Made by a program: the position numbers and the translations under genes. Shown here piece by piece: positions 38,301-44,193 of a stretch of DNA of 46,724 bases; position 1 is the stretch's first letter, and each line of letters begins with the position of its first letter. This DNA is from a virus: positions 1-46,724 of the IMG/VR virus record IMGVR_UViG_3300046167_000334; one strand, written 5' to 3'. Below the pieces are notes generated by a model. That model was not told the origin of the DNA. It made no database searches and was given only the letters and a program-made list of their open reading frames with translations.

Positions 38301-39140
38301 TTACAGACCCCAGTTTTCAGCACAGATCGGGCCGATGCCACGCTCAATGCTTTCTTTGTTGGTCAGTTCGCGGCCACAGCAAGCACAGGTGCCTGTTGTG
38401 CGGCCATAAGCTACGGCTGATGACAGTGGGTCAGCGGCCAGAGCTTGAAGGGCTGTGGTGATGCTCTCAGGCGCTGTACGCACCTTATGAAATTCACCAC
38501 CAATTACTTTACCAAAGTAATCATCTTCAAACGCTGGGCCAGCCTTGACGTAAATCGCGCCAGCGTTTCTGCTGTTTGCGCCAGCCAAGCTCAGTACCAT
38601 TCCATCAAGGCGCAGCTTTGGGAATTTTTTGCCTGCGTTTTTGGCAGTGGCAAAGATTTCTTCGACACGCGCCAGATCAACTTTGGCCTTTGGGGCAGCG
38701 TCTGCGGCAGCGCGTTTTGCGTCACGCTCTGCTTGGCCTGCAAGGATTGAACGAGCGAACCGCACCTGACCCTCAGTCAGTGATCCCCACTTTTCAAATC
38801 CAGCCAGCAAAGACGATGCCTTGCTGTGCCACTGCATGGCCTGCAAGCCTTCGATCAGACCCTCGTTTGCGGCAATGAAATCGGCTTTTTTGTTGGCTTC
38901 ATTTTTGGCCTTACGAGCCACGCGCTGGGCCTTGAGCTTGCTGCGATCTTCGCGGCTATTCAAGAAGTGGCCGTTGCCTTTGCAGGCCAAGCACTTGTTG
39001 TTGCCGTGGCGATTAGTGCCACCTGACCAGAGGCCAGTACCAGCGCACTGGCCGCAAGGAAATGTCTTGCGCGGTGCTTCAGTTTCGGCTGGCAGTGTTT
39101 CATTCGCCAGTTCTGCGGCCCATGTGTCAAAATCGTTCAT
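38301..39140 (-). CDS. Zinc-finger protein with C-terminal DUF6011-like domain, 279 aa
   Basis: The start at 39140 (MNDFDTWAAELANETL) is set by GGAGA upstream. Two zinc parts are visible. An N-terminal DnaJ-like pair CGQCAGTGLWSGG and CLACKGNGHF lies at about 29-61. A C-terminal CACCGRELTNKESIERGIGP with ICAENWGL fits the short DUF6011 pattern. The middle is basic and helical (SKLKAQRVARKAKNEANKKA). Likely binds nucleic acid or unfolded protein. Its promoter carries a dyad candidate operator, so it may be the first gene of a regulated early unit. Not recognised beyond the zinc modules. Confidence 0.75.
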   Translation of the reverse strand: MNDFDTWAAELANETLPAETEAPRKTFPCGQCAGTGLWSGGTNRHGNNKCLACKGNGHFLNSREDRSKLKAQRVARKAKNEANKKADFIAANEGLIEGLQAMQWHSKASSLLAGFEKWGSLTEGQVRFARSILAGQAERDAKRAAADAAPKAKVDLARVEEIFATAKNAGKKFPKLRLDGMVLSLAGANSRNAGAIYVKAGPAFEDDYFGKVIGGEFHKVRTAPESITTALQALAADPLSSAVAYGRTTGTCACCGRELTNKESIERGIGPICAENWGL

Positions 39141-39182
39141 TGTGGTCTCCTTGGATTTTTGAATTTTTGATCTTACACAATA

Positions 39183-39210
39183 CATATAATGATACCCCAA
39201 GATATATCAA
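39183..39210 (-). promoter_or_regulatory. Sigma70-like promoter for the - strand arm
   Basis: On the - strand TTGATA (39205-39210) and TATATG (39183-39188) are 16 bases apart. Downstream lies a 25-base box (39164-39188, including the -10) repeated exactly at 40944-40968. The leader continues to GGAGA and the ATG at 39140. Confidence 0.65.
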
Positions 39211-39218
39211 GGGGTATC
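39191..39218. promoter_or_regulatory. 28-bp dyad, candidate operator
   Basis: GATACCCC (39191-39198) and GGGGTATC (39211-39218) are perfect inverted arms. The centre reads AA-GATATATC-AA, where GATATATC is itself palindromic. The dyad covers the -35 element and spacer of the promoter, so a bound dimeric protein would block RNA polymerase. Confidence 0.7.
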
Positions 39219-39231
39219 TTTAAATAATTTA

Positions 39232-39678
39232 TTAGCGGGGTGCTTTTATTTCCCACGCATAGCCCACGCGCTTGCGGCGGTGCTTGGATTTGCGAACGCT
39301 GTGCCATTCGCCAGACTGGTTGTCGATGGTTTTGTCGCCCGACACCACAATGTAGTGGCCCGTGATATTGACCAGATAGGTCTTCTTGCGATCACGGGTC
39401 TTGAGCCAAGCCGCCAGCGTAGGATTGTGTCTGGCATACGATCCAACATCACGGCAGTAGTGTAACGTCATCTGAATGCCATTGGCCCCCATGACCGTCT
39501 TCATGAGCTTGTTGCTCATACCCGTGATCTTGCCGCGAAACGTGTGACACAGGCACACTTCATATGCGGCGTCATAGTGCTGACGCATGAACACAGCAGC
39601 GGCGTATGGGCCACACCATGTGTGGCGGCTCTTGCTGGTGCGAAGGGGGGTGTGGGCTTGGGCAGTTCTTGGAAGCAT
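39232..39678 (-). CDS. Papain-like/C39-like cysteine peptidase candidate, 148 aa
   Basis: Catalytic-type residues appear in papain order. Cys22 lies in TWCGPYAAAVFMRQHY at the start of a helix, His108 in NITGHYIVVSGD, and Asp119/Asn120 follow in KTIDNQSGEW. CGPxAxA plus HYIVV is the pattern of C39-like and related papain-fold proteins. No signal peptide, so it would act in the cytoplasm, perhaps on host or phage proteins early in infection. Basic C-terminus (RKSKHRRKRVGYAWEI). Ribosome site GGAGA. No family was verified by search. Confidence 0.65.
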   Translation of the reverse strand: MLPRTAQAHTPLRTSKSRHTWCGPYAAAVFMRQHYDAAYEVCLCHTFRGKITGMSNKLMKTVMGANGIQMTLHYCRDVGSYARHNPTLAAWLKTRDRKKTYLVNITGHYIVVSGDKTIDNQSGEWHSVRKSKHRRKRVGYAWEIKAPR

Positions 39679-39720: not shown

Positions 39721-39948
39721 TTAATATTCCGACAATTCTTGTTCGGTCAGGCTGGCGTAAAACTCAGCAAATTCGTTTTTCAAGTTCCTATCGCCAATAT
39801 ACTCTTCAAAGCTCTCGACCTCATAACCACAAGCGCGACTTTCGCTCTTGTAATTATAATAAGCCTCCCGCTCCTGCTCCAGAAAACGCTGGCGCACATG
39901 ATATTTGATGTGCTTTGCGATGGCTTTGGCTTCGGCGATTGTTGTCAT
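39721..39948 (-). CDS. Small charged helical protein, 75 aa
   Basis: Starts MTTIAEAKAIAKHIKYHVRQ, continues as charged helix with FEEYIGDRNLKNEFAEFYAS and ends ELSEY. GGAGA ribosome site upstream. Not recognised; likely an early host-takeover mini-protein by position. Confidence 0.65.
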   Translation of the reverse strand: MTTIAEAKAIAKHIKYHVRQRFLEQEREAYYNYKSESRACGYEVESFEEYIGDRNLKNEFAEFYASLTEQELSEY

Positions 39949-39992
39949 AGTCTGTCTCCTGATTTTTGATTTTTTCTCTTAAAGCCCCGTTT

Positions 39993-40348: not shown

Positions 40349-40362
40349 GGGGCCGAAGCCCC
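40349..40362 (-). other. TTCG-loop hairpin between early genes
   Basis: On the - strand GGGGC-TTCG-GCCCC forms a 5-bp GC stem just after the stop at 40371 and before the next gene. No U tract. Similar in sequence to the hairpin at 20571-20594. Confidence 0.6.
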
Positions 40363-40370
40363 CCGTTGGA

Positions 40371-40922
40371 TTAGAAGTTGTAGTCGTAGTGCTTGATAGC
40401 CGCAGTATGAAGGCTGTGACGCCCGTGGCTGCTTTTCCACGAACCGTCCTTCTGGAGACGAGCGCGAACTGTGTAGCCTTCTGGGTCTGACTTAATGATC
40501 CAAGCGTTGCGCTGATCGCCATTGTTGGTGCAATGACCAGCGAAGCCACCTGAGACAAACTCAGGCTTCCAGTCGGGGTGCCGCTCTGCGCTCATGGAGC
40601 GCAATTCGATTGTTTTGTTGGAGACAACACGCACGATCTCAAATGGTGTTGTATCGCTATAGCCGTTCTGATTGGCGTGAGTGTAATTGATCTCTTCGAT
40701 CTCGTAAGAATGTTTTTGTGGGAAAGCACCAGCACGGCGTACTGGAAGCTCTTCGATTACCGCTTCAGCTTCAGCAGCGGTACTCCAAGTGGCCCGTGGG
40801 CTGTTTGAACGGCGAAGAAAGTCACGCTTTGCCTTATACTCAATAACATATTCTTCTTGTGTATTGGCTTCTGGCGCGGCGATAAATCTGCTAGTAACTT
40901 TGATTGCGAATTTCTTGAACAT
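40371..40922 (-). CDS. Conserved hypothetical early protein, 183 aa
   Basis: The N-terminal MFKKFAIKVTSRFIAAPEAN is followed by a helical section. The conserved-looking C-terminal half has KPEFVSGGFAGHCTNNGDQR and a final VRARLQKDGSWKSS with HYDYNF end. The EFVxGGFAGHCxNN and KxGxW...YDYNF patterns I recall from several phage hypothetical proteins. His and Cys in GGFAGHC could be catalytic or metal ligands, but nothing proves it. First gene after the 25-base promoter box. Confidence 0.65.
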   Translation of the reverse strand: MFKKFAIKVTSRFIAAPEANTQEEYVIEYKAKRDFLRRSNSPRATWSTAAEAEAVIEELPVRRAGAFPQKHSYEIEEINYTHANQNGYSDTTPFEIVRVVSNKTIELRSMSAERHPDWKPEFVSGGFAGHCTNNGDQRNAWIIKSDPEGYTVRARLQKDGSWKSSHGRHSLHTAAIKHYDYNF

Positions 40923-40962
40923 TGGGTCTCTCCATTTTTTGAGTTTTTGATCTTACACAATA

Positions 40963-40990
40963 CATATAGGCATTCTGATCGGAGATACAA
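40963..40990 (-). promoter_or_regulatory. Second - strand promoter with the shared 25-base box
   Basis: TTGTAT (40985-40990) and TATATG (40963-40968) are separated by 16 bases on the - strand. The 25-base box 40944-40968 is identical to 39164-39188. No dyad overlaps this copy. Confidence 0.6.
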
Positions 40991-40999
40991 TAGCAGAAT

Positions 41000-41090
41000 A
41001 CAAATTAAATATATTTAATTAATATATGGGGGGAATATATGGGGGGAAAATGGGGGGAAGCCAAAATGGGTGACTTTCCCCCGATGCAAC
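41000..41090. repeat. AT-rich palindrome next to three ATGGGGGGAA repeats (possible origin or structured element)
   Basis: An 18-bp perfect palindrome AATTAAATATATTTAATT (41003-41020) sits in a nearly pure A/T stretch. Beside it are three ATGGGGGGAA units with G6 tracts at 41028-41033, 41041-41046 and 41052-41057, plus GGG at 41068-41070. The layout of short G-rich iterations beside an AT-rich block resembles small replication origins; a G-quadruplex on the + strand is the alternative. It lies in the largest gap of the - strand arm. Confidence 0.5.
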
Positions 41091-41420
41091 TTATGCTGCG
41101 ATTTGATATAGCCAGCAATTCATGTGGCCTTTGCCCCCGTTTCTTGATCGGACGTGAGCTTTTTTAACAACCAAGCCAGCATCAACAGCGTGGCGAATCG
41201 TTCCACACACATTGTGAGAGTTTTTCTTCAGCAGCCGTGCAATGTCTTGGCTCGTCATTGGCCCATGCTTTTCCAACACTCTCAAGATCGGCGTAAACGC
41301 GCCAGTATCTGTCCGACTGCGCTTTTCCCCTCTATCGCACGGCAGCGGTGGTCGCAGAGGCTTGCCGCTTGGGCCTTTCGTTCTCGCTTGTAGTCTTTCA
41401 AATTCCAGCCATTTATTCAT
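41091..41420 (-). CDS. Winged-helix DNA-binding protein, 109 aa
   Basis: The basic N-terminus is followed by a winged helix at about residues 40-100. ILRVLEKHGPMTSQDIARLL gives helices 1-2, NSHNVCGTIRHAVDAGLVV the recognition helix, and SRNGGKGHMNCWLYQIA the wing strands. This resembles MarR/LexA-like or phage replication/regulatory winged-helix proteins. It could bind the adjacent AT/G-rich element or the 39191 dyad; that is inference. Confidence 0.7.
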   Translation of the reverse strand: MNKWLEFERLQARTKGPSGKPLRPPLPCDRGEKRSRTDTGAFTPILRVLEKHGPMTSQDIARLLKKNSHNVCGTIRHAVDAGLVVKKAHVRSRNGGKGHMNCWLYQIAA

Positions 41421-43809: not shown

Positions 43810-44193
43810 ATGCGCCTCATCGATTAAGATCAGGTCTGGTGCAGGAATGATGTCATAGCGCCCTCTCCCAGACCGACTGGATGCCTGCGAAGGTAATGGG
43901 GCGGTCTAAGACCTTCTGTTTCAGCCCCGCACTGTAAACCCCGTAATCAGCCTCTGGATACATTTTCAGCAGGCCATTGGCCCCCTGCTCCAGCAAGCTC
44001 TTTTACATGCGTCACAATCATTACCCGTGTGCCAGCAAATGACATAGCGTCCTTTACGATCTGCGCTATGATAGGCCGTCTTGCCCGATCCAGTGGGTGC
44101 CACGATCAATGGATTATCGCCAGCCTTGCTTGCCCAATAATTGTACAAGCCATCGACGGCTTCTCTTTGATAATCGCGTAATTCAAAGGTCAT
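43810..44193 (-). pseudogene. DEAH-box helicase, N-terminal part with three frame changes
   Basis: Starts at 44193 with MTFELRDYQREAVDGLYNYW and Walker A VAPTGSGKT (residues 31-39). The sense then moves frame to IIAQIVKDAMSFAGTRVMIV, again to LLEQGANGLLKMYPEADYGV, VLDRPITFAGIQSVWERA, and finally to YDIIPAPDLILIDEAHMLPK, which holds the DEAH motif and joins the intact part. Each step fits one inserted base (three in total, restoring the frame). The Q-motif region and motifs I and II are therefore all present. Confidence 0.85.

Follow-up and report, generated by a model that had tools for sequence, protein, structure and literature searches.

The question raised by this locus is why an inverted repeat should lie inside the core of a predicted phage promoter. 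The window, that is, the whole stretch of DNA analysed, comprises the 46,724 bases of a virus record, and the repeat, here called dyad A, is found at positions 39191–39218 on its minus strand, in the gap between the stop of gene 39232–39678 and the start of gene 38301–39140. These positions read GATACCCCAAGATATATCAAGGGGTATC. The dyad is built of GATACCCC TTGATATATCTT GGGGTATC, with perfect 8-bp arms and a palindromic centre, GATATATC, and 12 of its 14 position pairs are complementary; the 28-bp dyad that the preliminary description had reported here is confirmed. On the minus strand, from 39218 down to 39183, the sequence is GATACCCC TTGATA TATCTT GGGGTATC AT TATATG. The predicted −35 of promoter A (TTGATA, 39205–39210) is thus contained in the dyad, which ends 2 bp before the predicted −10 (TATATG, 39183–39188), placed 16 bp from the −35. 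The same description had put the dyad over the −35 element; it does cover that element, together with the spacer and not the −35 alone. By itself, the symmetry is of moderate significance only, because 8-bp arms are not rare: plain dyads with such arms number 24 in the window and 14.5 in shuffles, and at least one turns up in 126 of 2000 shuffled versions of the 92-bp gap. Stretches of 28 bp with 12 of 14 pairs number two in the window, dyad A and an AT-rich one at 40998, whereas 20 shuffles average 0.1 of them. The only site in the window with at most three mismatches to GATACCCC-N12-GGGGTATC is 39191–39218, matches being found in 8 of 100 shuffles. Dinucleotides were kept in the shuffles for symmetry and arm frequency, as well as in those behind the fold z-scores of A, B, C, L004 and L052 given below. 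The main argument for dyad A is its conservation and position, rather than its symmetry.

The −10 belongs to a 25-base box, TATATGTATTGTGTAAGATCAAAAA, which comprises the −10 and the start of the leader (39164–39188, minus strand). A second copy at 40944–40968, also on the minus strand, is the same at 25 of 25 bases, with none expected by chance at up to three mismatches; both the identical box and the existence of a sister promoter, promoter B, had been proposed before and stand. A generic sigma-70 scan, requiring four of six bases per hexamer and fixed −10 letters, listed neither promoter A nor promoter B, so the promoter call rests on TTGNNN-N16-TATATG, which is common to all three promoter types described below; the shared core is presumably of the sigma-70 kind. 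Promoter B, with its predicted −35 TTGTAT at 40985–40990, had been described as lacking the dyad, which is true of dyad A; it has a structure of its own, however, the weaker dyad ATTCTG-N16-CAGAAT (40972–40999, minus strand), which lies over the predicted −35 and the spacer and whose left arm is variable among relatives. A GC-rich hairpin, GGGGGAA...TTCCCCC (41053–41082, minus strand), kept in relatives, is found between the winged-helix gene and promoter B, an intergenic GGGGCTTCGGCCCC hairpin (40349–40362, minus strand) lies between genes 40371 and 39993, and more GC-rich hairpins separate other early genes of the window. Beside promoter B, positions 41020–41060 contain two to three copies of a ATGGGGGGAA(TAT) repeat whose copy number differs among relatives, possibly a replication or regulatory repeat.

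When a 6-kb early query was compared with 50,697 phage records, the only DNA matches were CRP-902 and CRP-901, Roseobacter CHAB-I-5 phages of 52–53 kb, with about 65% identity over 24% of the query. The same early genes and dyad A are also present in L185, a contig binned into a Rhodobacteraceae MAG. Together, these similarities point to a likely host in the Roseobacter group. CRP-901 and CRP-902, the nearest cultured relatives, are reported as strictly lytic (PMC10149686), and a lysogeny switch was rejected on that ground, though not an early shut-off. In the window, the helicase gene is split into several frames at 43853–44193 (minus strand), whereas in L093 it is open over 551 codons; the split reflects frameshifts, which are perhaps assembly errors.

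Box and dyad were searched for in 2.9 million viral contigs, and the matches, read for promoter type, revealed that the same core and box stand behind three different upstream stem-loops, A, B and C, the last being TATCTGGG-N11-CCCAGATA, and that TTGNNN-N16-TATATG is retained in all of them. Promoter and stem-loop form one unit, the stems of A and C overlapping the core. Among 35 chosen loci, 10 contigs contain all three types, and in every one of these they are arranged B, C, A, in the early region and with variable genes behind each. Each slot is marked by a conserved gene: B is preceded by the winged-helix gene, C by gene 39993 and A by gene 39232. The window keeps two of the three types. 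A search of the window for the C pattern gave no match, and the lost promoter has left a scar at 39949–39992 (minus strand), recognized by aligning the window with L156–L158, where the leader AAGAGAAAAAATCAAAAATCAGGAGACAGACTATG persists before gene 39721–39948 and the stem-loop and −10 are missing. The idea that one of two promoters is under repression is not supported by this comparison, as relatives have three sister promoters; since each has its own stem-loop, the contrast of promoters with and without an operator becomes one between stem-loops.

The conservation of dyad A was assessed starting from the protein encoded by gene 39232–39678 (minus strand; 148 aa, phrog_3754), the 3' end of which precedes the dyad in all close relatives with DNA there. 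Dyad A was found downstream of the homologous gene in 22 of 22 such relatives, two more being cut, so that the predicted promoter of the zinc-finger gene does contain a conserved dyad. Fifteen of the 22 copies are identical, five have AATACCCC, one has a C-to-T change (CCTC) and one lacks a G. Pairwise diversity over 18 unique sequences is 0.0145 in dyad A, 0.077 in the upstream coding DNA and 0.155 in the leader (MAFFT alignments, gaps skipped), which makes the dyad about five times less variable than the adjacent coding DNA, although apparent conservation is inflated in the type, family and diversity sets of A, B and C, collected in part by exact box or dyad patterns; in the diversity set for A, one filter removed rows without gene 39232 upstream. 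The count of 22 is unaffected by this bias, beginning as it does from a neighbouring protein, and so is the corresponding count for the C slot, in which gene 39993 protein led to C in 15 of 18 close relatives (at least 79% identity). The remaining three have a plain GGGGC..GCCCC hairpin in its place, with a UUCG loop in L164, and four distant or partial matches to gene 39993 have other sequence. In this slot, the hairpin seems to be the constant and the promoter the option. Among 10 unique sequences of C, 0 of 16 arm columns are variable, against 3 of 11 in the loop. In L174, L175 and L176, distant relatives of gene 39993 are followed near positions 2660–2720 by a dyad, GCCATAGTGT...ACACTATGGC, overlapping TTGACA. 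The 148-aa protein has no Pfam match; it contains CGP and GHYIVV motifs reminiscent of a papain-like/C39 peptidase.

The genes behind the promoters are exchangeable. In the window, promoter A is followed by the gene of a zinc-finger-like protein of 279 aa (38301–39140, minus strand) with a DUF6011 domain at its C-terminus (Pfam PF19474, E 9.7e-16), and promoter B by a gene of 183 aa (40371–40922, minus strand). A survey of the window and loci L073–L116, L129, L185, L002, L046 and L070 found seven unrelated gene families behind A, the zinc-finger gene among them (28 promoters, 26 contigs), seven behind B, including that of the window (28 promoters, 28 contigs), and six behind C (13 promoters, 13 contigs), the contig counts being perhaps one or two too high owing to contigs split or duplicated over loci (L101/L102/L003, L104/L108 and L001/L074). 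Two families are shared between two promoter types, and three promoters have no readable gene. The zinc-finger gene is found behind B in L074 (on the contig of L001) and in L002, where the region upstream of promoter B has no match to the proteins of the window; a crossover within the common box would give such an arrangement. In L099 and L103, dyad A occurs twice, with different genes behind. Upstream of the 40371 homologue in L056 and L057, three GCTAGC-centred repeats replace the dyads found elsewhere.

Whether the repeats are read as RNA or as DNA was approached through their folding. As RNA, dyad A folds at −15.7 kcal/mol (z −3.8) and the promoter B dyad at −9.0 kcal/mol (z −3.2); z is −3.3 and −3.8 for C, −5.2 for L004 and −5.5 for L052, the last two having unrelated stems at the same place. 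A uniform search for core promoters in the relatives, CRP-901/902 and L174–L177 yielded 18 distinct ones, of which six have hairpins unmatched by 200 shuffles and seven lie at a shuffle fraction of at most 0.025, namely types A, B and C and those of L004 and L052; in these shuffles, and in those for the CRP hairpins below, only base composition was kept. The hairpin of one promoter on the L004 contig (TTGTAATATCGATAGGAGTTCTTATATT) is not significant. Drawn as 12-bp stems with a fixed 3-nt loop, C (from L076), L004 and L052 have 36 pairs, 30 of them Watson–Crick, six G–U and none of another kind, a pattern more in keeping with RNA than with DNA symmetry; in L100, a single A–C mismatch is present in C. 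In dyad A, the two pairs that are not Watson–Crick are U–U, not G–U. Its centre GATATATC is a palindrome that does not vary from one A copy to another, although a loop would require neither property. Substitution types in the arms of A, B and L004, counted by eye, keep a G–U pair in three of five cases; as about half would be expected from transitions alone, arm changes do not separate selection on RNA from selection on DNA. Dyad A has the GC-rich stem of an intrinsic terminator but not the U-run, the next eight bases being AUUAUAUG, and it is absent from the output of a terminator scan.

On balance, dyad A is probably the stem-loop half of a composite cassette, resembling the promoter-early stem-loops (PeSLs) of other phages, that stands at the entrance to an exchangeable gene slot. 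Host RNA polymerase would start at TTGATA-N16-TATATG and produce the mRNA of the accessory gene behind, and read-through from the upstream gene would copy the dyad into an RNA hairpin that may end, slow or cap the incoming transcript. Each accessory gene would then be a unit of its own. Different phages have the −10/leader box and the conserved flanking genes in common, so the cassettes may serve as joints for accessory-gene exchange, with the box as the presumed site of recombination. Several of the results above count against the cassette reading: the absent U-run, the palindromic centre and the U–U pairs of dyad A, the A–C mismatch of C in L100 and the L004 promoter whose hairpin is not significant. 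The operator-like dyads of CRP-901/902, described below, do so too. It is also conceivable, if doubtful, that the three stem-loops are address tags, each slot having its own stem next to the promoter box that all of them share. When phages co-infect, homologous exchange would in that case put a new gene into the matching slot, the genes between slots would not be deleted and the slots would be transcriptionally insulated, so that the early genes of a lytic marine phage, possibly for counter-defence, would be kept as an ordered plug-in array.

The main rival to the cassette reading, though we consider it rather unlikely, is that dyad A is an operator at which a repressor, dimeric or tetrameric, would occlude the −35 and spacer and silence the accessory gene. 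A symmetric DNA site lies exactly over these elements, with 12 of 14 symmetric positions including the palindromic centre, and its low diversity relative to the adjacent coding DNA is what such a site would lead one to expect. The same site does not recur at the other promoters, however: it is the only one in the 46.7-kb window, the absence of a second full copy there being tempered by the double occurrence in L099 and L103, and the dyads of B and C differ. To serve all three dyads, a genome would have to encode a regulator for each or a single one of very loose specificity. In addition, plain RNA hairpins substitute for dyad C at the same slot. Better operator candidates are found elsewhere in this group of phages. 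In CRP-901/902, a TTGTAA-N16/17-TATAT core occurs in four copies per phage with a dyad in the spacer; 8 of 8 such promoters have TGACA-NN-TGTCA, whose arms are conserved and whose centre is variable; the promoter reads TTGTAATCT[GA]TGACA-NN-TGTCA at four places each in L130 and L131, before four early genes. This dyad makes a poor RNA hairpin, a fraction of 0.05 to 0.43 of shuffles folding as well in six distinct cases, and is a candidate for the shared operator of one regulator.

Two proteins were considered as possible binders of dyad A. The winged-helix (MarR-like) gene at 41091–41420 (minus strand; Pfam MarR_2, E 2e-6), a conserved upstream neighbour of promoter B by synteny, had been put forward as a candidate binder and was rejected as the leading idea. 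Its recognition region, KNSHN[VI]CGT[IV]RHAV with near variants, is present in most relatives; in L129 it is KSWQSISTTIDNCI and the second half of the HTH is different, yet dyad A is identical to that of the window and it is the B spacer that differs. L087 has the recognition region of L080 and nevertheless a different B spacer, so the link to the B spacer is broken too. No winged-helix match was found in the 9.6 kb of L004 at E 1e-4, despite a comparable dyad, and binding of dyad A by this protein is accordingly unlikely. A Cro-like HTH gene, beyond the end of the window and seen in relatives, was rejected as well: both CRP and window-type phages retain its helix, as SHPTVKA or SHPTVKS, and the gene adjoins its own conserved 27-bp dyad, TTTAC-N17-GTAAA in most, which differs from dyad A and lies over a likely divergent promoter (L130 14309–14418; L131 13641–13762; the regions upstream of the HTH gene in L049, L088, L093, L099, L101, L106, L109 and L111). 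As a possible phage operator, this dyad is more convincing than dyad A. A host operator borrowed by the phage was sought by scanning genome contigs with ACCCC-N2-GATATATC-N2-GGGGT. Eight places were found. One of them, on L185, the 4.2-kb contig assigned to a Rhodobacteraceae MAG, represents the phage, whereas the remaining seven belong to other phyla, several resembling A/T-flanked terminator hairpins; this explanation was discarded. So was an activator site, as the distance from dyad centre to −10 varies, by our own count, among A, C, L004 and CRP, which argues against a fixed activator face.

A double role, with the stem-loop acting on RNA and some copies serving also as binding sites, for instance in early shut-off, appears improbable: dyad A does unite a hairpin and a palindromic centre, and one promoter per CRP phage combines its spacer dyad with an upstream GGGGCTTCGGCCCC hairpin abutting the −35, but no regulator was identified for it and the reading is less parsimonious. 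That the dyad is functionless, an old hairpin retained only through its overlap with a selected promoter, is very improbable, for even if 8-bp arms are not rare in the window and the arms differ in the AATACCCC, CCTC and G-less variants, the distal arm outside both hexamers is conserved as well, the arms of C are invariant where its loop varies, and L004 and L052 have unrelated stems in the corresponding position.

The cassette reading marks three slots at which unrelated small early genes are swapped, a good hunting ground for new genes of host takeover or counter-defence, and DNA probes based on the conserved cassettes could be used to collect the slot genes. In a literature search covering open-licence papers, no descriptions of such cassettes in roseophages were found. 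The start-associated sequences (SAS) of cluster K mycobacteriophages are a repeated motif, with an inverted repeat, before many small genes; SAS has a Shine–Dalgarno-like part and ESAS consists of 17-bp inverted repeats beside it. The repeat of the window group differs in lying within the promoter and in varying between cassettes. In the haloarchaeal virus HGTV-1, a TATA-like box and an inverted repeat precede most ORFs of one side of the genome, a motif likened to PeSLs by its authors (PMC3950731). The combination of box and inverted repeat is similar, by description alone, and the promoter is archaeal. CRP-901/902 share with the window group a core with a spacer dyad, repeated four times per phage, but theirs is one short, common dyad with weak RNA folding, and any hairpins are separate and upstream.

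The closest likeness is to the PeSL cassettes reportedly described by Arbiol in 2010 in the T4-type phages RB49 and phi1. PeSL stem-loops are reported to act as terminators, and mini-circles are known for them. Among 15 strict TTGAC[AG]-N15-18-TAT cores in the first 50 kb of RB49, 6 have arms of at least 6 bp over the core, compared with 46 of 500 random 43-mers; these stem-loops, which from their position and look we take to be PeSLs, differ from promoter to promoter, and five of the six are without a U-run. In both groups, a sigma-70-like core is overlapped by a stem-loop, the stems differ within a genome and the cassettes exchange early accessory genes. In the window group, the cassettes number three, each specific to its slot, and their order is fixed, whereas those of RB49 and phi1 are many and scattered, and the stem lies over the −35 and spacer, instead of in the spacer or over the −10 as in RB49. 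Since the window phage is not T4-type, its cassettes are named PeSL-like and not assigned to the PeSLs of the described group; a cassette known from T4-type phages would extend to an abundant, mostly uncultured marine group.
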